Under the pieces are notes generated by a model. That model had not been told where the DNA came from. It did not search any database and worked only from the letters and a program-made list of their open reading frames with translations. A program made the translations under genes and the position numbers. 64,000 nucleotides of DNA from an uncultured Crocinitomix sp. (GTDB lineage: Bacteria > Bacteroidota > Bacteroidia > Flavobacteriales_D > Crocinitomicaceae). Shown piece after piece: positions 3,544 to 28,578 of the stretch; within the stretch, counting starts at the first letter, position 1; the number at the start of each line of letters is the position of its first letter. The stretch spans positions 124,001-188,000 of the forward strand of contig CAKZON010000069.1 of the NCBI GenBank assembly GCA_937136425.1, read 5' to 3'.

Positions 3544-3930
3544 CTATTCTTCTTGCTGTCTTGCTTCCTCGGCCGAGTTTAATTTAGAATCCTCCTCAGT
3601 CAGTGCCGCTCCGCTATAGGCTGTGCCTGCAAATTTTGACTCCCACTTCATCTTATCATCCTCTGACATATTTGCCCACTTATGTTTAAATTTATGTTTC
3701 CATCCTCTATGGCCTTTTGAACCATTACAACCACATCCTTTTTTTCCGCCGCTAAAACCTCCAAATAGTATTTTTGATAAAGCCAACAATCCTAAAGCTT
3801 GCCAAAAAGTAATGGTAGATAGGTCAAATATTGCTGGCATTAACCAGTTCCAAAGCAACATTAACACCCAAGTCACCAAAGCAGCCATCCCTACAAAGAA
3901 AAACGGTATAAAAATCATTTTCTTTTTCAT
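3544..3930 (-). CDS. Small membrane protein cotranscribed with ECF sigma factor
   Basis: A 128-residue protein has two hydrophobic segments (about residues 5-27 and 36-58), a glycine- and cysteine-containing turn (GGKKGCGCNG), a basic His/Lys/Trp-rich stretch and an acidic C-terminal half containing MSEDDKMKWESKF. Its start codon overlaps the end of the upstream sigma gene by 4 bases (ATGA type), which implies translational coupling. Similar short membrane proteins with a MSxEEK-type amphipathic tail follow ECF sigma genes in many Bacteroidota. A regulatory or sensory role for the sigma factor is an inference from this context. It does not look like a classic zinc-binding anti-sigma domain. 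Confidence 0.75.
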   Translation of the reverse strand: MKKKMIFIPFFFVGMAALVTWVLMLLWNWLMPAIFDLSTITFWQALGLLALSKILFGGFSGGKKGCGCNGSKGHRGWKHKFKHKWANMSEDDKMKWESKFAGTAYSGAALTEEDSKLNSAEEARQQEE

Positions 3931-4487
3931 TCTCCTAATATTTCGTTATACAATTCACTCAATTTTTTTCGCAAATAAAGAATCGCGTAGCGTTTTCTTG
4001 AAATCAAGGTGTTTACCGTTTCACCAGTTAGTTCTGCAATTTCTTTAAAAGATAAATCGTCAAACTCATGCATGGTAAAAACATCTCGCTGCTCAACCGG
4101 AATTTCTGTCAACCCTTCTTCTAATACCTCCCACACCATTTCACGTGTTAACAATGCATCTGGCAAGTCATTCAAGTCTGGAATATAAGCCTCAAATTGC
4201 AATGATCCTTCGTCATCTGTTGCGACATTATTCATATCAGAAAAGTTTAAACTCTTTTTCTTTCTATATAAGTCGGTTATCCGATTACGCGCCACCTGAA
4301 ATAACCAGGCGCTCATTTTTTCAATTGTATTTACGTCTTCCGAAACGCGCACCAATTGATAAAATACATCTTGCAAAATATCTTCCGCATCCAACGTAGA
4401 TTTTACTCTTTTACGAATAAAGTTAAAAAGCCTGTTTTGCTCTTTAGCTACTGTTTTAGATATGACTATTTCGTTTGAGGTTGACAT
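3927..4487 (-). CDS. ECF-type RNA polymerase sigma factor
   Basis: A 186-residue protein has the two-domain layout of extracytoplasmic-function sigma factors. Region 2 covers about residues 15-85, with AEDILQDVFYQL and WLFQVARNRITDLYR matching the -10 recognition helix region. Region 4 covers about 115-175, with LTEIPVEQRDVF and FKEIAELTGETVNTLISRKRYA forming the helix-turn-helix for -35 binding. The linker is acidic. It heads an operon with the small membrane protein that overlaps its 3' end. A TAnnTTTG element about 38 bases upstream suggests housekeeping transcription. The target genes cannot be read from the sequence. Confidence 0.93.
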   Translation of the reverse strand: MSTSNEIVISKTVAKEQNRLFNFIRKRVKSTLDAEDILQDVFYQLVRVSEDVNTIEKMSAWLFQVARNRITDLYRKKKSLNFSDMNNVATDDEGSLQFEAYIPDLNDLPDALLTREMVWEVLEEGLTEIPVEQRDVFTMHEFDDLSFKEIAELTGETVNTLISRKRYAILYLRKKLSELYNEILGE

Positions 4488-4524
4488 TTTATATTTGCGT
4501 TCATCTTAGGAGACGAACCTGAAT

Positions 4525-4532
4525 CAAAGATA
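4525..4532 (-). promoter_or_regulatory. Bacteroidota -7 promoter element (TATCTTTG) for the ECF sigma gene
   Basis: The minus strand reads TATCTTTG, an exact match to the TAnnTTTG consensus known for the Bacteroidota primary sigma factor. It lies 38 bases before the sigma start codon. No clear TTTG -33 partner is seen. Confidence 0.5.
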
Positions 4533-4583
4533 TTTTAAAGTCTGCTAAAAAAAATTTAAATTCAATGAATATCAAAGGTTTAT

Positions 4584-4602
4584 CAATGAACGCGTTTCAT
4601 TG
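4584..4602. repeat. Short palindrome between sigma gene and alkD-like gene
   Basis: The 19-base element CAATGAACGCGTTTCATTG has perfect 6-base arms around the palindromic core ACGCGT. It lies about 80 bases upstream of the alkD-like start, in the divergent spacer, so it could be a repressor site. No regulator can be named. Confidence 0.35.
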
Positions 4603-4680
4603 GTAAGCAATAAACCAACGGGTACATTAAGTATAAATTACTTTCATTATCTTAGCTCATTCCTAATCAATTATAATAGT

Positions 4681-5388
4681 ATGACAGCACAAGAAGTATT
4701 AGCAGAGTTAGAAACTTACGGGAGTGAACAAACCAAAAAAACGTTGGTAAAACACGGGGCTAAAGAACCATTTTTTGGTGTAAAAGTGCAGGACCTTAAA
4801 AAGGTTTTGAAGAAGACAAAAAAGAACCACGAACTATCGTTGGATTTATATAAAACAGGAAATACAGATGCCATGTATTTAGCAGGACTAATGGCAGATG
4901 AAAAACAAATTACAAAAGAACAGTTAAACGAGTGGGTAAATGCAGCCTATTGGTCATATTTAAGCGAATATACAGTGCCATGGGTTGCATCTGAAACTGA
5001 CTTTGGATTTGAAATAGGTTTGGAGTGGATTAAAAGTGATGTTGAAACAATTGCTGCTGCAGGATGGTCAACTTTGGCTAACTATGCAACCATTAATGAG
5101 GATTCAAATTTAGATTTGGACGCCTATATAAAACTGTTAGATTCTATTCCAACTGCCATACTGGATGCGCCCAACCGTGTTAAGTATACCATGAATGGAT
5201 TTGTAATTGCTGTTGGATCTGTTGTTGTTGAACTGACAGATAAGGCAAAGGCAATTGCAAAAGAACTGGGTAAAGTAAAAGTAGACATGAATGGTACAGC
5301 TTGCAAAGTTCCCTTGGCTTTAGATTATATTTTAAAAATTGAGGATAAAGGACGCCTTGGTAAAAAGAAAAAAACGGCGCGTTGCTAA
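4681..5388 (+). CDS. DNA alkylation repair protein, AlkD-like HEAT-repeat family
   Basis: A 235-residue protein starts at the ATG at 4681 (MTAQEVLAELETYGSEQ). The upstream in-frame extension to 4600 adds an unlikely leader. The N-terminus (KTLVKHGAKEPFFGVKVQDLKKV) matches the AlkD-like pattern in which a short helix and a GxxxPxxGVxxxxLR-type loop precede HEAT-like helical repeats. Trp-containing helices follow (LNEWVNAAYWSYLSEY, LEWIKSDVETIAAAGWSTLA). AlkD-type glycosylases excise N3- and N7-alkylated purines without flipping the base. Many shorter relatives in Bacteroidota are assigned only by fold, so the exact activity is uncertain. The PaiB-like gene follows 7 bases later on the same strand. 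Confidence 0.8.
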   Translation: MTAQEVLAELETYGSEQTKKTLVKHGAKEPFFGVKVQDLKKVLKKTKKNHELSLDLYKTGNTDAMYLAGLMADEKQITKEQLNEWVNAAYWSYLSEYTVPWVASETDFGFEIGLEWIKSDVETIAAAGWSTLANYATINEDSNLDLDAYIKLLDSIPTAILDAPNRVKYTMNGFVIAVGSVVVELTDKAKAIAKELGKVKVDMNGTACKVPLALDYILKIEDKGRLGKKKKTARC

Positions 5389-21246: not shown

Positions 21247-22737
21247 ATGGACGGAACCCTTTTCCAGTTGATCGACGACGTTACGCCGAAAAACTTAAAA
21301 CAGGCCATGCAGCAAGCAATTGAAATTGAAATTGCAACCATCCCTGTTTACCTTTACACCTATTATTCTATTAATAGGACACCCAATCAAGATGATTTGG
21401 CAACGCAAATTTTAAAGGACTTTAAATTAACGCAAAGCAGTGTTGAAGATCCAATTCCTGATAATATATTAACCGAAATGGCTAATGAATTGGCTTTAGA
21501 AATTGTTGTGTTTGCCAATAAGGCGGGTGCACTAATTTTAAGTGTAGCCGTGGAAGAAATGTTACATATGTCACTTTCATCCAACATTAAAAATGCGCTT
21601 GGTAAATATGGAGGATTGCCAGATTTAGTTGGAAAAACACCAAAAGTTTGGCCAGCTTATTTACCAGGTCATGTTCCTGCTTTCCCTATTAACAGAGCCA
21701 AATTAACACTGGATCAATTACATGCGTTTTTGCTTATTGAAACTCCGCTTCCATTTAACAATAATATGGCAGAAAAAGGAGATGTAATTGAATATCAAAC
21801 CATTGGTCAGTATTACGGAAAAATAATTGATTGCATTCAAAACGATTTATCTGACAGTGATTTTAATCCAGATGCTCCACAATTGATTTCGGGCAGAGGT
21901 TATTATGCTCAAAATAACATTGACACAGTTTATTATAATAAAAAACACGAGGCACAATTCACCAATGCTAATGACAGTGGAGGATTAATACATGTTGTAA
22001 ACCGTGCATCTGCAGTTGCTGCAATGAATGAAATTGTTGAGCAAGGTGAAGGAGCCACGCATAAAACACCAGCAGGGAAAAAAATAACAGGTAATCATTT
22101 AACGCCTGATGGGCAAGTTGTTTGTCCAATTGCGCCTCTTGGCAAAAAAGGAACGAATACTAATGACTATGACGATAAAGACAAGAAAGAACTTTCGCAC
22201 TTTGACAAGTTCTTAGAGGTTTATTGCGGTATTTATAAAATTAATCATGGTTTAAATGAACAATTAGGAACGAAGGATTTTGATTTTACAAAGTATTTTG
22301 TGAAAGACTTACCCACTAACCCTATGACGACAGATTATCCTGAGGATATTCAAAAATTATCAACCTTAACGAACTCCATTTATACCTACATTTTTGTAAT
22401 GGCTGAAGCTTGTTATAAAACTGGCGGCCACAAACAGTATGAAATTTTCATGTTTGGAATTCATAAATCAATGATTTGGATTTTGAACTCACTTTGCGAA
22501 TCAATGTCTGGTATGAGCTACAGAGATGCTAATGGGATGTTGCAAACTGTGTCTGCCACGTTAGAGGATTATGATTTTGCTTTGAGCAGTAGTCCAAAAT
22601 CTCAAATTATAGAATTAGCAGCAATTGCAAAAGCAGCTAACCCAAGTTTATCGGAAGGAGTAATTGCAAATATTAACGATTTACCAGATGTGCCAATTGA
22701 AAGCTATTTAGTGAAGGACAATACAGGTATTTTATAA
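21247..22737 (+). CDS. VioB-like ferritin-like domain protein
   Basis: A 496-residue protein has an N-terminal ferritin-like domain of the kind found in VioB/RebD iminophenyl-pyruvate dimer synthases: QAIEIEIATIPVYLYTYYSI near residue 20 and AVEEMLHMSLSSNIKNALGG near residue 100. The Glu and ExxH residues are candidate di-iron ligands. A later helix pair (YIFVMAEACYKT, MFGIHKSMIWIL) supplies more Glu and His. It lacks the large haem domain of true VioB, so indole chemistry is unlikely. It is the first gene of an operon with a Cys-rich protein 17 bases on, a DUF692 oxidase and its partner. That context suggests iron-dependent oxidation or oxygen handling for peptide modification. Confidence 0.85.
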   Translation: MDGTLFQLIDDVTPKNLKQAMQQAIEIEIATIPVYLYTYYSINRTPNQDDLATQILKDFKLTQSSVEDPIPDNILTEMANELALEIVVFANKAGALILSVAVEEMLHMSLSSNIKNALGKYGGLPDLVGKTPKVWPAYLPGHVPAFPINRAKLTLDQLHAFLLIETPLPFNNNMAEKGDVIEYQTIGQYYGKIIDCIQNDLSDSDFNPDAPQLISGRGYYAQNNIDTVYYNKKHEAQFTNANDSGGLIHVVNRASAVAAMNEIVEQGEGATHKTPAGKKITGNHLTPDGQVVCPIAPLGKKGTNTNDYDDKDKKELSHFDKFLEVYCGIYKINHGLNEQLGTKDFDFTKYFVKDLPTNPMTTDYPEDIQKLSTLTNSIYTYIFVMAEACYKTGGHKQYEIFMFGIHKSMIWILNSLCESMSGMSYRDANGMLQTVSATLEDYDFALSSSPKSQIIELAAIAKAANPSLSEGVIANINDLPDVPIESYLVKDNTGIL

Positions 22738-22754
22738 TTATAAAAGATTAAAAC

Positions 22755-23531
22755 ATGGAAAATTTTAAATATAATGTTGCAAACGGCTGCGGTGGTGGCG
22801 GTGCATCAAATGGTTGTGGAGGAAGTGGAAAATCAAACGGTTGCGGTTCAAGCGGAAAAAAGGACATTGCTGTTCCTTTAGAGTTGCACACTTGTATGGG
22901 ACTAAATGCCTGCAAAGGACATGATAGATATGGAACAAATGACTGTGCGGGGTCTGGAATGTGTGCAACAGTTCAGCATGTATGCCATACTTTAAATAAC
23001 TGCAAAGCTCAAGGAGGTTGCGGACTTTATGGCGACACTGAAGAACAATGCAAACCAGGTGCAAATGATTGCGCATGGCAAGGAAGCTGTGGTTCTCCGA
23101 TTCCTGCAGAGCGTTTTATTACCCAAGGTGAAAACCAAGGAAGAAGTGTATGGCAATTGGCTCGAAAATTATTTGAGGATCGCATGGATAAAGCTAAAAG
23201 AACGATTAAACCTGCGCCATTTAAATACGGCCCACCAGTAACTTGGTTAGAGGCAAATGGCAGAGGAAGTTCTTGCGGGCATAGTGGAAATAAATATTGC
23301 AGTTTTGGACAAAATAATGCAGCAGCAAGTGCTGAAGCATTTTGTATTGAATCAGCCAAAGAAATGGAAGATACTTTAGAAAACTGTGGTTGTATTGAAC
23401 TAGAAGTTGAAAAAGTAACTCCTAAAAAAGCGGTTGCTGCAGTAAAAAAAGCTCCGGTTAAAAGAACCGCAACAAAAACAACTGTGAAAGGCAAAAAAAA
23501 GACAACACCTAGAACAAAACGCAAAGGTTAA
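22755..23531 (+). CDS. Cysteine-rich protein, candidate MNIO-modified substrate (BufA2-like)
   Basis: This 258-residue protein has 18 Cys and no signal peptide. The N-terminus carries three NGCG repeats (Cys12, 21, 30) in a Gly/Ser linker. Residues 45-113 hold regularly spaced Cys in C-x5-C units (47/53, 64/70, 77/83/89, 106/112) with CMGLNACKG, NDCAGSGMCAT and NNCKAQGGCG. These recall bufferin-type (BufA2) precursors. A helical part (about 117-150) and five further Cys follow (174-213). The last 45 residues are a histone-H1-like Lys/Ala/Thr/Pro tail. The DUF692 enzyme and DUF2063 partner follow directly, so modification of these cysteines is likely. It is much longer than known bufferin precursors. 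Confidence 0.85.
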   Translation: MENFKYNVANGCGGGGASNGCGGSGKSNGCGSSGKKDIAVPLELHTCMGLNACKGHDRYGTNDCAGSGMCATVQHVCHTLNNCKAQGGCGLYGDTEEQCKPGANDCAWQGSCGSPIPAERFITQGENQGRSVWQLARKLFEDRMDKAKRTIKPAPFKYGPPVTWLEANGRGSSCGHSGNKYCSFGQNNAAASAEAFCIESAKEMEDTLENCGCIELEVEKVTPKKAVAAVKKAPVKRTATKTTVKGKKKTTPRTKRKG

Positions 23532-23562
23532 TTGACTACCTTTTAAGGATAAATAAACACGA

Positions 23563-24489
23563 ATGACAATTGATAAATTGCCTAATTTAGGGCTTGGGCT
23601 AGGATTAAGAGGCGAACATTTTAACCACATTCTAGAACACAAGCCTGCCGTAGATTGGTTCGAAATTATTTCGGAAAATTTTATGGATTCTGGTGGACGT
23701 CCACGTCATGTATTAGATCAAATTAGAGAACATTATCCTGTGGTAATGCACGGCGTTTCTATGTCAATTGGTAGTACAGATCCGCTTGATTTTGACTATT
23801 TAAAAAAGTTAAAACAATTGAGCACAGAAATTAATCCTGTTTGGATTAGTGATCACCTGTGCTGGACAGGCGTTTTAAGCATTAATTCACACGATTTATT
23901 ACCTGTGCCGCTAAATGAAGGAACCTTAGAGCATATTGTTAATCGCATTCAGGTTGTGCAAGACTTTTTAGAGCGGCCATTAATTATTGAAAACCCAAGC
24001 ACCTACCTCGCCTTTCAGCATTCAGACATACCTGAGTGGGAATTTTTGAACGGCTTGGTAGCTGCGACAGGTTGCGGTTTATTATTAGATGTAAACAATG
24101 TTTATGTCTCGGCTTTTAACAATGAATTTGATCCTATAGAATATATTGAAAACATCAATCATCAACATATAGTTCAAATGCATTTGGCAGGCCATCAGCA
24201 TTGCGGAGATCACATTATTGACACGCATGATAGCCCAGTAGTAGATCCTGTTTGGGAACTTTTTCGGCTGGCTTGGCAAAAAACTGGTGGCACCTCAACT
24301 CTATTAGAATGGGATGGCAATATTCCAGATTTTGACACTTGCCATGCTGAGCTATTAAAAGCCAAACAATATATGAACGGGCTGGTTGGCGATATCGATT
24401 TAGCAACACCAACGGATGAACGCGACTTGGCAGTTTCTAATCCTATAGACTTTATGGTCACCAAAGTTGCAAATAGTTTTGTTAAATAA
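23563..24489 (+). CDS. DUF692 multinuclear non-haem iron-dependent oxidative enzyme (MNIO)
   Basis: The 308-residue TIM-barrel-type protein shows the full MNIO motif series: [51 protein letters not shown] near residue 96, [53 protein letters not shown] and LLEWDGNIP. The His, Glu, Asp and Asn residues in these motifs bind two or three iron ions. Family members oxidise Cys in ribosomal peptides (methanobactin oxazolone/thioamide, bufferin thiooxazole, C-terminal amide or excision chemistry). It sits between the Cys-rich protein and the DUF2063 partner, which fixes its likely job. Confidence 0.94.
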
Positions 24490-24495
24490 TTAAAG

Positions 24496-25323
24496 ATGTA
24501 TTTAGACCAAAGCTCCAAACTGAAAACAGCATCTGCCCAACTCAATGAAATTCAAAGTTGGATGCAAACACAACTCTTGCACCCTAGTGAATTAACCAAA
24601 GAGGAAACAGAAACTTACATTAAACCATCTAGCAAATTAACCGCACGCCAGCATTTGGCCATTTATCAACGCAGTTACATTGCCCGTTTACGTGCATGCA
24701 TGCAAGCTCAATACACTGGACTTTCTTACGCCTTAGGTCCGCAAATTTTTGATCAATTCACTGATTTTTATTTGAATAATCACCCTTCCAAAAGTTATAC
24801 CTTAGGAGATTTAGGAGACCAATACGCCCATTTTTTGGCAGAAACCCGACCAGATAAAGATGAAACAGTAAAAGAAACCTGGCCAGATTTTATGATCGAA
24901 TTAGCGGAGTTTGAATATTTAATTAACGACGCTTTTGATCAAAAATCAAATGAAGACATTGAATTGGTTAAGACAGAAAACACAGATCAGGAATTTAAAT
25001 TACTTCCGATTTTTCATATTCTCACTTATCAGTTTCCAATCAGTGTTTTTTATAAGGCTGTCATTAATGACCACCAACCTGAGTTGCCGCAAATGCAAAC
25101 GAGTTATACCATTTTGCTCCGGAAAAATTATCAATTAGGGTTGTTCGAAATCAATGAGGGGCAATATCATTTTTTAAAGCATTTTGAATCTAATAATTCA
25201 GTTCGTGCGGCTAAAAGTTATATGGTTAATCATTTTGGAATTCCTGCAAAAAAAATGGATTTATTTTGGAAAGAATGGCGCCAAGCATGGATTGAACAAG
25301 GCTTTTTTCAGGTTAATTTATAA
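24496..25323 (+). CDS. DUF2063-family MNIO partner protein (BufC/MbnC-like)
   Basis: A 275-residue protein begins 6 bases after the MNIO gene. The N-terminal half matches the DUF2063 pattern: IQSWMQTQLLHP, ARQHLAIYQRSYIARLRACMQ, YTGLSYALGPQIFDQF, DFYLNNHPSKSYTLGDLGDQ and WPDFMIELAEFEYLINDAF. In known MNIO systems this type of partner (MbnC, BufC) delivers the precursor peptide to the oxidase. The C-terminal half is a winged-helix-like region ending in FWKEWRQAWIEQGFF. It closes the operon; a terminator-like hairpin lies just beyond. Confidence 0.9.
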   Translation: MYLDQSSKLKTASAQLNEIQSWMQTQLLHPSELTKEETETYIKPSSKLTARQHLAIYQRSYIARLRACMQAQYTGLSYALGPQIFDQFTDFYLNNHPSKSYTLGDLGDQYAHFLAETRPDKDETVKETWPDFMIELAEFEYLINDAFDQKSNEDIELVKTENTDQEFKLLPIFHILTYQFPISVFYKAVINDHQPELPQMQTSYTILLRKNYQLGLFEINEGQYHFLKHFESNNSVRAAKSYMVNHFGIPAKKMDLFWKEWRQAWIEQGFFQVNL

Positions 25324-25330
25324 AGCAAAA

Positions 25331-25370
25331 GAGGGAAATACTCTTTCAAATAAATCCCTCCTCAGTTTTT
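25331..25370. terminator. Bidirectional terminator-like hairpin between MNIO operon and Cys-peptide gene
   Basis: GAGGGA (25331-25336) and TCCCTC (25355-25360) pair around an 18-base loop. On the plus strand a T-run follows after 5 bases. On the minus strand TTTTGCTTTA follows the stem directly. It serves both converging transcripts. The stem is short, so efficiency is uncertain. Confidence 0.5.
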
Positions 25371-25453
25371 TAACAACAGCTATTGGTTGTTTCACAAGTA
25401 CACGTGCAATTATTATTTTCATCACAGGTGCATGTACAATTACAATTTTTCAT
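25370..25453 (-). CDS. 27-residue peptide with nine cysteines (CTCTC repeats)
   Basis: The minus strand encodes a complete short frame, ATG at 25453 to TAA at 25370-25372. The peptide starts MKNCNCTCTCDE and continues NNNCTCTCETTNSCC. Nine of 27 residues are Cys (positions 4, 6, 8, 10, 16, 18, 20, 26, 27), arranged as two near-identical NCTCTC blocks joined by an acidic/Asn linker. No signal peptide is present. It starts 73 bases after the SigZ-type sigma gene stop, with a promoter-like box in that spacer that matches the one before the sigma gene. A hairpin follows its stop. It could be a metal-binding (metallothionein-like) peptide or a small substrate of the adjacent MNIO enzyme. Its shortness leaves some doubt. 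Confidence 0.7.
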   Translation of the reverse strand: MKNCNCTCTCDENNNCTCTCETTNSCC

Positions 25454-25493: not shown

Positions 25494-25521
25494 AGACGGG
25501 AACTTTTAAAAAAGACGCAAA
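25494..25521 (-). promoter_or_regulatory. ECF-type promoter box before the Cys-peptide gene
   Basis: Read on the minus strand: TTTGCGTC, a 15-base spacer, then CGTCTG. The same layout with the same 15-base spacer (GCGTC to CGTTT) precedes the sigma gene. The ATG lies 40 bases downstream. The shared box suggests recognition by the adjacent SigZ-type factor. Confidence 0.6.
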
Positions 25522-25525
25522 TTAT

Positions 25526-26059
25526 TTAACAATCACAATCTTTTTCCTCCGCGTTCAATACATTTCCGTAAACATCTGTTTGGATATTGCAACACTGCAC
25601 AAACAGGTTTTTCAGTTTTTCTTTTGCACGTTGCGATCGTGATTTGATAGTAGAATAACCTACATTAAGATTTGCTGCATACTCTTTTTGAGACATTGAA
25701 CCAAATGCTGTTTTGTTCAATAAATCTTGATCTTTTTCTGGCAATTCTTTGACGAAAGACATTAAACAGCTGCTCAAATCTTTCGTTGAGCTGGTCGCAT
25801 CTTCTGGAAATTTTTCTTCAATGGTATCTTGAAATACGAGGCGTTTCTTTTTGCGATAATAATCAATGATTGTATTGCGCGTTATTCGATAAATCCAACT
25901 CGCTAAATTGGCACCTTCGCCCAATGATGCAAGGTTTGCATGAATTTTGATAAATACTTCTTGTAAAAGATCCTCTGCGAGCTCTTGATTATTTATACGC
26001 GATTTTATAAAGCCTAAAAGCTCCGCTTTAAAGTCGTTCCAAATATGTTCTGTTGTCAT
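25526..26059 (-). CDS. SigZ-type ECF sigma factor with Cys-rich C-terminal tail
   Basis: The 177-residue protein has sigma region 2 (residues about 10-75: ELAEDLLQEVFIKI, ASWIYRITRNTIIDYYRKK) and region 4 (about 110-160: LPEKDQDLLNKTAFG, SQKEYAANLNVGYSTIKSRS). Beyond region 4 it carries a tail with QCCNIQTDVYGNVLNA and a final CDC, a feature of SigZ-like factors. Five Cys in the tail (two CC plus C, C with the earlier SSCL outside it) could sense metal or redox state. That is inference. It is divergent from the WG-repeat gene and lies between it and the Cys-peptide gene. Confidence 0.9.
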   Translation of the reverse strand: MTTEHIWNDFKAELLGFIKSRINNQELAEDLLQEVFIKIHANLASLGEGANLASWIYRITRNTIIDYYRKKKRLVFQDTIEEKFPEDATSSTKDLSSCLMSFVKELPEKDQDLLNKTAFGSMSQKEYAANLNVGYSTIKSRSQRAKEKLKNLFVQCCNIQTDVYGNVLNAEEKDCDC

Positions 26060-26073
26060 TGTTTTCTTTTATT

Positions 26074-26101
26074 AAACGTAGAAACTTTAAAAAGACGCAA
26101 A
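26074..26101 (-). promoter_or_regulatory. ECF-type promoter box before the SigZ-type sigma gene
   Basis: The minus strand reads TTTGCGTC, 15 bases, CGTTTAAT. It matches the box before the Cys-peptide gene in both half-sites and in spacing, and the sequences between also align (TTTTTAAAGTT-type). The sigma ATG is only 15 bases beyond. This points to autoregulation. Confidence 0.6.
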
Positions 26102-26130: not shown

Positions 26131-28578
26131 ATGCAAATTACTCAATTCATATCAAAATTAATCATTAAGGTAATGTGTGTGTTTGTATTTTGCTATTCTG
26201 TAAAATTAGAGGCACAGGTGCTTGAAGAAGAGTTTCCTAATCCAGTTGAAAAAACTATTAATTCAGCAACCAAAATCATTAAAATTAACGAAGAATATGC
26301 CTTACAAAAGGGCGACTCTACCTTTGCTAAGGGAGTTTATGATAAAATTTCCCGTTTTAATCAAAGTCAATTTCTTGTTATAAAAGGGAACAAACGAGGC
26401 TTGATCAATGATACAGGTGAGTTAATTATTCCAATTAAATATGGTGCTATTTCCTATTTAAATCAAGACCATTCTACTGATATTCTTGTAAAAAAAGGCA
26501 AAAAGTGTGGTTTGATGGATGAAAAAGGAAAAATCATTTTACCTATTAAATACAAAAAGATACACTACGGTAATTCGTCCTCCAAATTATATTTAGTTAC
26601 TGATAAAAAAGAGGAGTTACACTTATTACTAGGAAGTAAACTTGAACCGTTTACAGGAATTGAAAAAATAACTTTTTTCAAAAACGTGGCTGTGTTTACC
26701 AAGGACAAAAAATTTGGCGTGATCCATAATGGAGCAATTACCATTCAACCAGAATATGATAAAATTGAAGTTAAAACAGATGCAAGTAAGAATGCACCAC
26801 TTTTAAATAAAACCTATTTCAGGAATCAGTACGCAAAAGATTTGCAATGCGTAGTAATTGTGCAGGATGGAAAAAAGGGCTTAGCAAGCGCGAATGGTGA
26901 AACAATTTACGAACCTCAATTTGATGCCATTGAATTTGATTATAATCATGGTTATTACTCCTTAATAAAAGGAAATAAATGGGGAGCATATTTTCCAAAA
27001 AGTAACATTAAAATTGAGACTGTTTATGACCGCATTCTTCCGCATAAAACAACGTATTTAAAGTTGTTAAAAAAAGGGAAGCAAGGTATTATAAACTATG
27101 ATGGAAAAACTATTCTGCCGTGCATTTTCAGTTCAATAGAGGAGCAATTAACTGGCAATTTGTTAGTTGTTAAAAACAGAAAAATAGGACTTTATAACGG
27201 TCTTGGAAAAGTGGTTTTTCCGGTTGAATATGATGACATATCAGCCAATCGGTATTTAGAAAATTCTTATCGGGTAACACGCAACGGGGGCACTGGTGTA
27301 ATTAACCCAAACACTACTATTGTGCCTATTCAATTTGACAAAATCACTGAATTTGGAAACTACTTTATTGTTGAGAAAACAGATTCAGTTGGGATGTATA
27401 ATTTTAAAGGAGAGCAAATTCAAGAACCAACAAATGGTTGGATGCAACATAGCTATACGCCAAGAAGCGACCTAACGTATATCTCAATTAATAATCATTT
27501 AAATATCGTGGATCAATATGGGCAATCCGTTTTAAATGATTCTCTCATTGCTTATCAATACATCCGCAACAGTTCAAACTTATTCTCACCTGAATCTGAG
27601 AATATCACAGCAGCATTTGTTGGTGTTCAAAGTAAAAATGGAAAATGGGGTGTGCTTGAAGAAATAGAATCAAAACTCGTCATTCCTGTAATATATGATA
27701 AAATTATACAGAAACTTGACTTGAAAATAGCCACTTACTTTATTGTAAAAAAAGGCGATAAAATGGGGGTAATCAATTCAGCAAATGAAATTCTTATTCC
27801 TTTCGAATATCAAAATTTAAGCTTTAATGAAGTTTCTGCAAAGTATATTAGCGACTCTTGGGAAGTAAATGTTGTGGCCAAAAAAAACAATAAATACGGA
27901 CTTATTGATTTGGAAAACACGATCATGATTCCGTTTCAATATAACGACTTAGTCAAAATTAGTTTTGACGATATTTATAAAGCAAAAACAAACGCTTCCT
28001 ACATTGTTATTAATAGCAATAATCAACACATTTTTGAAGGAAAATTTGACCAAATTGGTGTTTTTGAAAATGCACAAGTGCTAACTTTTAAAAGTGGGAA
28101 AATGCGTGTAATTAATAAAGCAGGGAATTATCAAACAGATGCTAAGCCCATGACTTATCATCAAGGTTATCGCACCTTTAAAGCACTAAAAAGTGCATTG
28201 GTCAATGGTTTAAATAGTAAAAATAATGCTGCACTTTTAAATTTTGCAAATAAAATAACACCCAGTAAACATCTTCTCTATCTCTTTTCTAAAATTTCAC
28301 ATAGAAACGCCTATGTTGAATATCTTTCCCCTAAAAAAATTAGCAAACGTTATTACGAAGTACTTTTAAAAATTAAAAGTAAATGGAATGCTGGGTCACA
28401 TTCAAAAAGTAAGCTGACAAATGTTGATGACTATACTACTTTCGACGGAAAGGTTTATTCAAATTATCGCAATGAAGAAGAGACATATGGTATGCGAGAA
28501 TTAAATTGGATATTGAAAGATGCCGTGCGTTTAGATGGATTTTGGATGAGTACCTTTTTTCTAAAACATAGCTTTTAG
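26131..28578 (+). CDS. Large exported WG-repeat protein
   Basis: An 815-residue protein has a signal peptide-like N-terminus (about residues 12-29) and then at least ten WG-type repeats. Examples are NKRGLINDTGELIIPIKY, KCGLMDEKGKIILPIKY, KKGLASANGETIYEPQF, KQGIINYDGKTILPC, KWGVLEEI and KYGLIDLENTIMIPFQY. Each repeat is a small beta unit of the WG/KWG family, found in exported Bacteroidota proteins. The last 150 residues are a different, helix-rich domain ending in WILKDAVRLDGFWMSTF. Function is unknown; binding roles are usual for such repeats. It is divergent from the SigZ-type gene and separated by about 70 bases. Confidence 0.88.
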   Translation: MQITQFISKLIIKVMCVFVFCYSVKLEAQVLEEEFPNPVEKTINSATKIIKINEEYALQKGDSTFAKGVYDKISRFNQSQFLVIKGNKRGLINDTGELIIPIKYGAISYLNQDHSTDILVKKGKKCGLMDEKGKIILPIKYKKIHYGNSSSKLYLVTDKKEELHLLLGSKLEPFTGIEKITFFKNVAVFTKDKKFGVIHNGAITIQPEYDKIEVKTDASKNAPLLNKTYFRNQYAKDLQCVVIVQDGKKGLASANGETIYEPQFDAIEFDYNHGYYSLIKGNKWGAYFPKSNIKIETVYDRILPHKTTYLKLLKKGKQGIINYDGKTILPCIFSSIEEQLTGNLLVVKNRKIGLYNGLGKVVFPVEYDDISANRYLENSYRVTRNGGTGVINPNTTIVPIQFDKITEFGNYFIVEKTDSVGMYNFKGEQIQEPTNGWMQHSYTPRSDLTYISINNHLNIVDQYGQSVLNDSLIAYQYIRNSSNLFSPESENITAAFVGVQSKNGKWGVLEEIESKLVIPVIYDKIIQKLDLKIATYFIVKKGDKMGVINSANEILIPFEYQNLSFNEVSAKYISDSWEVNVVAKKNNKYGLIDLENTIMIPFQYNDLVKISFDDIYKAKTNASYIVINSNNQHIFEGKFDQIGVFENAQVLTFKSGKMRVINKAGNYQTDAKPMTYHQGYRTFKALKSALVNGLNSKNNAALLNFANKITPSKHLLYLFSKISHRNAYVEYLSPKKISKRYYEVLLKIKSKWNAGSHSKSKLTNVDDYTTFDGKVYSNYRNEEETYGMRELNWILKDAVRLDGFWMSTFFLKHSF

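Follow-up and report, generated by a model that had tools for sequence, protein, structure and literature searches.

A conserved 27-residue cysteine-rich peptide gene linked to sigZ in Crocinitomix, and a candidate one-component metal switch

The DNA analyzed here, a stretch of 64,000 nucleotides from an uncultured Crocinitomix sp. (the window), carries a gene for a 27-residue peptide with nine cysteines, whose start codon lies 72 nt past the stop codon of sigZ on the same (minus) strand. Both genes are preceded by closely similar promoter boxes, and comparison with other bacteria suggests that they form a compact defense against arsenic or another thiol-loving metal. Judged from sequence, SigZ is likely a CorE-like sigma factor that senses metal(loid)s as a one-component system and would activate itself and a cytoplasmic mini-metallothionein, with the peptide gene probably its partner and its sole further target in the window's genome. 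The role of SigZ and the promoter it reads, formerly an open question, thereby become testable, and the pair, with one sensor and one effector, would be close to the smallest metal switch that such a design allows.

The peptide gene (25370-25453, minus strand) runs from ATG to TAA and translates to MKNCNCTCTCDENNNCTCTCETTNSCC (27 aa, 9 Cys, with the pattern CNCTCTC ... CTCTC ... SCC). An initial annotation of the window had described a complete 27-residue frame with nine cysteines and two CTCTC blocks, placed between convergent genes and followed by a hairpin, and all of these features were borne out. After Met1 the peptide contains no A, I, L, M, F, V, W, or Y, and it has neither aromatic residues nor histidine. 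The gene sits between a convergent DUF2063 gene on the plus strand, which ends at 25323, and sigZ on the minus strand (25526-26059). The hairpin after the peptide stop (25328-25363, minus strand; -16.8 kcal/mol, z -3.83) is a possible, perhaps bidirectional, terminator; a simple terminator scan for a hairpin plus T run called no terminator there. Divergent from sigZ is a gene for an 815-aa WG-repeat protein (26131-28578), a relative of which adjoins sigZ in all four of the genus loci.

One line of evidence for the gene is its conservation, on which the initial annotation had made its proposal depend. The identical 27-residue peptide is found 3′ of sigZ in four Crocinitomix genomes, while SigZ identity across the genus falls to 91, 82, and 76 percent. 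Eight nucleotides vary among the four copies of the 84-nt gene, and all eight are third-position, synonymous changes, a pattern with a chance of about 1e-4 if only transitions are allowed. Because an identical peptide in four species with exclusively synonymous variation goes beyond chance, the ORF is almost certainly a real gene under purifying selection. The other forward frames have stops or variation across the four genomes. One antisense register has a stop at its outset and little variation afterwards; the synonymous-site test favors the sense frame, and by itself would still leave room for that register. The peptide is present in four of nine genomes of the genus, exactly those with a close SigZ (4/4 vs 0/5; p 0.008), two of the five peptide-less genomes being incomplete (67 and 84 percent). 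In favor of a chance ORF, one could cite the frequency of short ORFs and the lack of a matching family model: Pfam and NCBIfam gave nothing for the 27-mer or for ten of its relatives at E up to 1. A sequence search of the PDB with the 27-mer was likewise empty at E up to 10. A chance origin is contradicted by the synonymous variation and by the linkage to sigZ and box spacing maintained across genera and phyla, and its probability is negligible.

The second line of evidence is the promoter. A box of the form TGCGTCYTTTT-N10-12-CGTCT (variants allowed) lies 5′ of both genes: that of the peptide gene, TGCGTCTTTTTTAAAAGTTCCCGTCT, at 25494-25519 on the minus strand (TGCGTC-N15-CGTCT), and a close form of it before sigZ, TGCGTCTTTTTAAAGTTTCTACGTTT, at 26074-26099 on the minus strand. 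The ECF-type promoter box that the initial annotation had placed before the peptide is thus strongly supported, and it matches the one before sigZ. In the window's own 6.1 Mb genome, the loose form of the box has three matches, two of which are these. The exact pattern, TGCGTCYTTTTN{10,12}CGTCT, was searched in 17 of the 29 genomes with SigZ at E up to 1e-24, and gave 20 matches in 14 genomes, every one at the sigZ-peptide locus, against one match for the reversed-pattern control; G172, G016, and G700 had no exact-form match. In the window, the exact form fits the peptide box only, since the sigZ box ends in CGTTT. The loose pattern is noisy (matches in 70 of 239 genomes), and it is the longer T-run form alone, picked after the loci had been seen, that is specific.

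Across the 101 distinct sigZ loci described below, the strict box has 76 matches beside 58 loci, compared with eight in 867,601 background strand-bases; with one mismatch allowed there are 113 matches at 78 loci, 11 in the background, and none at 17 control loci of other ECF factors. At 23 of 24 loci with a downstream peptide, including one with a long spacer (L009), the distance from the end of a box to the start codon is 28-49 nt; in the 24th (L079) the box is degenerate. Upstream-peptide loci have a strict box in 1/11 cases and a one-mismatch box in 5/11, with look-alikes recognized by eye at several others, for example TGTATCTTTTTT. The paired boxes indicate that SigZ very probably controls the peptide gene, and autoregulation of sigZ via its own box is implied. 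The peptide gene belongs with sigZ, apart from the convergent operon, and the promoter signature offers a means of locating such cysteine-rich mini-genes. In the portion of the literature accessible for search, no SigZ promoters or targets were found, and both are proposed here; likewise, no description of a pairing of SigZ with a cysteine-rich peptide was found in literature reachable without most subscription papers.

That convergent operon (21247-25323, plus strand) is bufferin-like, encoding a ferritin-like protein, a 258-aa Cys/Gly-rich ORF (22755-23531, plus strand; a weak BufA2 match of 18.5 bits against a cut-off of 60), an MNIO enzyme of the BufB type (23563-24489, plus strand; NF050167, 364.2 over 310), and a DUF2063 partner. 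The initial annotation had suggested that the peptide might be an extra substrate of this enzyme, and would then become a modified metallophore. The MNIO gene is indeed only about 0.9 kb from the peptide gene and passes its model, and a cysteine-rich peptide near an MNIO gene recalls the RiPPs of the bufferin (BufA/BufB) type, but the 27-mer differs from these in being leaderless, in having its own sigma-type promoter, and in an unconserved MNIO adjacency; it also lies on the opposite strand and matches no BufA or other NCBIfam model. With tblastn at E up to 1e-5, run on flanks measuring 1.5 to 3 kb, MNIO genes were found near two of the 101 distinct SigZ loci, the window's (L001/L002) and L003, and were absent from the flanks searched around L004/L032 and L005, where the peptide is identical. 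The substrate reading was rejected on the lack of conserved adjacency, the missing leader, and the separate promoter, and is very unlikely.

The wider comparison used 106 SigZ loci with relatives over 85 bits, 101 of them distinct, drawn from the best 80 of the matches listed together with family searches; relatives of the window's SigZ are over-represented in this sample, so its fractions differ from those of the whole SigZ family. Cysteine-rich mini-ORFs were defined as 20-100 aa with at least six cysteines and at least 20 percent cysteine, within 500 nt and on the same strand. By this rule they occur beside sigZ at 34 of the 101 loci (23 downstream, 11 upstream), with a convergent mini-ORF at one further locus, compared with 1/17 other-ECF loci (p 0.02) and 3/1152 background windows; a first, looser rule (five cysteines, 15 percent, 700 nt) gave same-strand matches at 3/17 other-ECF controls. 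The genes form a class of about 25 to 90 codons with at least 20 percent cysteine, and scans of 11 of them against Pfam and NCBIfam gave no match. On a quick SigZ tree, in which 40 of 98 inner branches are open, the downstream-peptide label changes six times and the upstream label four, which points to several gains or losses of the link. As a point against the pairing, the peptide was found at none of seven plasmid SigZ loci (Vibrio, Photobacterium, Priestia, and Hymenobacter; seven of 20 listed records, out of 1826 with a match), L178 being read to an early stop only. Two of these carry a box, of one-mismatch form before sigZ in L172 and of TGCATC type on the opposite strand in L174, and the remaining five have none. 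Five loci were found after the rule was fixed: two were positive, one with a downstream peptide and a one-mismatch box (L179) and one with a convergent peptide and an exact box (L181), a third (L183) has a decayed peptide, and the other two lack it (L180, with a box before sigZ only, and L182, with neither). L183 is a relative of L008 with the same genus code; its decayed copy lies 3′ of sigZ, with similar first residues and the cysteine-rich frame lost. The spacer between sigZ and the peptide in L009 is about 460 nt long, and its translations show several near-repeats by eye. In L033, the gene behind the SigZ box (3614-4153) encodes a cysteine-rich N-terminal stretch followed by a 2Fe-2S-like domain, and might represent the peptide in fused form.

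These arrangements also bear on whether the peptide could be a leader that senses cysteine supply. Polycysteine leader peptides that sense cysteine by ribosome stalling occur as mycobacterial uORFs. The very high density of cysteine codons would suit such a role, as would the upstream arrangement, in which sigZ itself comes next. In the window, however, the peptide gene is followed by the hairpin and the convergent operon, downstream-peptide loci show no common next gene on the same strand, and the convergent copies in L078 and L181, each with a box in the peptide's own orientation, point toward the 3′ end of sigZ. A cysteine attenuator was rejected on the lack of a conserved downstream same-strand gene, the upstream arrangement apart, and is most improbable.

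SigZ of the window scores 172.2 bits against TIGR02959 (cut-off 168.65) and is the only one over the cut-off among 38 matches in the genome. For the SigZ of Bacillus subtilis, a 2020 review gives the function as "Not yet determined" (PMC7522486). Candidate sensor residues are a cysteine in the linker (Cys98), the pair Cys156-Cys157, and a C-terminal DCDC. Among the 101 distinct SigZ proteins, Cys98 is conserved in 78, Cys156 in 98, and Cys157 in 93, and 89 have a tail with two or more cysteines. The closest parallels are CorE and CorE2, ECF sigma factors that depend on metal and are classed as ECF238, former ECF44 (PMC8999054, PMC3107203). As in these, there is a linker cysteine, and no anti-sigma gene is recognized beside sigZ, whose neighbors are the divergent WG-repeat and convergent DUF2063 genes; the cysteines at the SigZ C-terminus may correspond to the C-terminal cysteine-rich extension of CorE. 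In contrast to CorE as described, the SigZ tail is short (CC156-157 plus DCDC), the target is a mini-peptide, and the linker has the single Cys98 in place of CXC; because that linker motif is missing, SigZ is said to work like CorE and is not filed as a member.

Exceptions to the cysteine pattern are informative. In six loci (L068, L091, L092, L097, L098, and L105) a gene for a PhzF-family isomerase lies 3′ of SigZ, and these factors lack the CC pair (0/6) and tail cysteines (0/6) while keeping the linker cysteine (6/6) and, in five of six, the box; both the signal and the target of SigZ may possibly have been switched there. Of the sequence evidence that these residues may sense metal, the best is their loss where the neighbor is a non-metal gene, and it counts as one event since the six factors form a single clade. 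Also against the pairing, two broken sigZ genes were seen, one with two in-frame stops in L005 and one with a frameshift in a metagenome assembly (L037 = L119), which may reflect decay or assembly error; in each, the peptide and box are intact. A predicted SigZ model of low confidence (tail pLDDT about 50, pTM 0.41) has helices consistent with the two domains of an ECF factor, and places strands 157-161 and 167-172 between the CC pair and the last CxC.

The proposed mechanism starts with a soft metal or metalloid that would bind the SigZ cysteines (Cys98, CC156-157, and the C-terminal CxC), which a predicted beta-hairpin would draw together. The metal-bound factor would become active with RNA polymerase and fire the two matching promoters, that of sigZ and that of the peptide gene. 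The 27-mer would remain in the cytoplasm and bind metal through its nine thiolates, arranged in CxC and CC motifs, thereby protecting the cell, and could also strip metal from SigZ and so turn the switch off. That the peptide binds a soft metal(loid) is rather probable. The initial annotation had proposed a metallothionein-like chelator, and composition, conservation, and regulatory context agree with that, the function itself being putative. Like bacterial metallothioneins, the 27-mer is small and cysteine-rich, has CxC and CC motifs, and is free of aromatic residues and histidine; it differs from them in matching no family model, and it is about half their usual size.

Alternatively, the peptide might be mainly a regulator, titrating metal from SigZ or binding it as an anti-sigma factor, with cell protection secondary. 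The promoter type shared with sigZ, the dedicated pairing, and the small size would fit this, and peptide relatives have a common start resembling M-x-N/D-Q by eye and end in CC in 15 of the 20 listed, so some sequence beyond cysteine number is kept. Against a mainly regulatory role, the central part of the peptide changes freely from genus to genus, in length as well as in sequence, and enzyme or transporter genes replace the peptide behind the box at other SigZ loci, which makes it improbable beside the chelator reading.

The genes at those other loci offer a lead as to which metal would be sensed. ArsM-type genes occur at 31 of the 101 loci (30 found via blastp with the L110 protein, L050 via clustering), two members being named by NF008823 over its cut-off. 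An ArsP-type permease occurs at seven loci (six via clustering, seven via tblastn), PhzF genes come next at six, and a DUF2703 gene at three more (clusters, with one HMM-named member each). Ten neighbor proteins were put through a model scan, and those over their cut-offs were ArsM (twice), ACR3, ArsC (pI258 type), ArsP_1, and DUF2703; in addition, annotated arsC and ACR3 genes lie about 2 kb from a Hymenobacter plasmid SigZ. These associations make arsenite the leading candidate inducer, a tentative assignment. The same switch and chelator could respond to zinc, cadmium, copper, or mercury instead, a possibility that should be taken seriously without being the expected one: CorE responds to copper and CorE2 to cadmium and zinc (PMC8999054, PMC3107203), a MerT-like protein (below model cut-offs) stands behind ArsM in L038, and the linker cysteine is absent from the ArsP-class SigZ relatives (0/7), so that SigZ branches may differ in specificity. 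On the other side, every metal-resistance neighbor over its cut-off among the ten scanned is of an arsenic type.

ArsM-type genes and the peptide are never found at one locus (0/101; p 1e-7, uncorrected for kinship), and loci of the peptide branch have no arsenic genes, which speaks against arsenite. The exclusion holds at the locus level and fails at the genome level, since G005, G016, and G172 each have ArsM over the cut-off and a SigZ-linked peptide. In this genome search, matches were found in every genome at E 0.001, methyltransferases being common, and only the 7/240 over the cut-off were used; the window's genome has no ArsM over it. It is conceivable, if short of probable, that SigZ is a widespread arsenite-sensing sigma family reading one promoter (TGCGTCYTTTT-N10-12-CGTC), with ArsM as its target in many lineages and, probably independently, a mini-metallothionein in several; the latter, unannotated and some 25 to 90 residues long, would cage As(III) with its thiolates in threes. 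Were this so, a whole sigma factor in the window's genome would serve one 27-residue peptide. In L038, a Bacteroidota relative close to the peptide-type SigZ on the tree, a SigZ box is followed by ArsM and then by the cysteine-rich MerT-like protein (3594-4910). In the Vibrio plasmids L175, L177, and L178, an ArsR-like helix-turn-helix frame, recognized by eye, ends just 5′ of SigZ.
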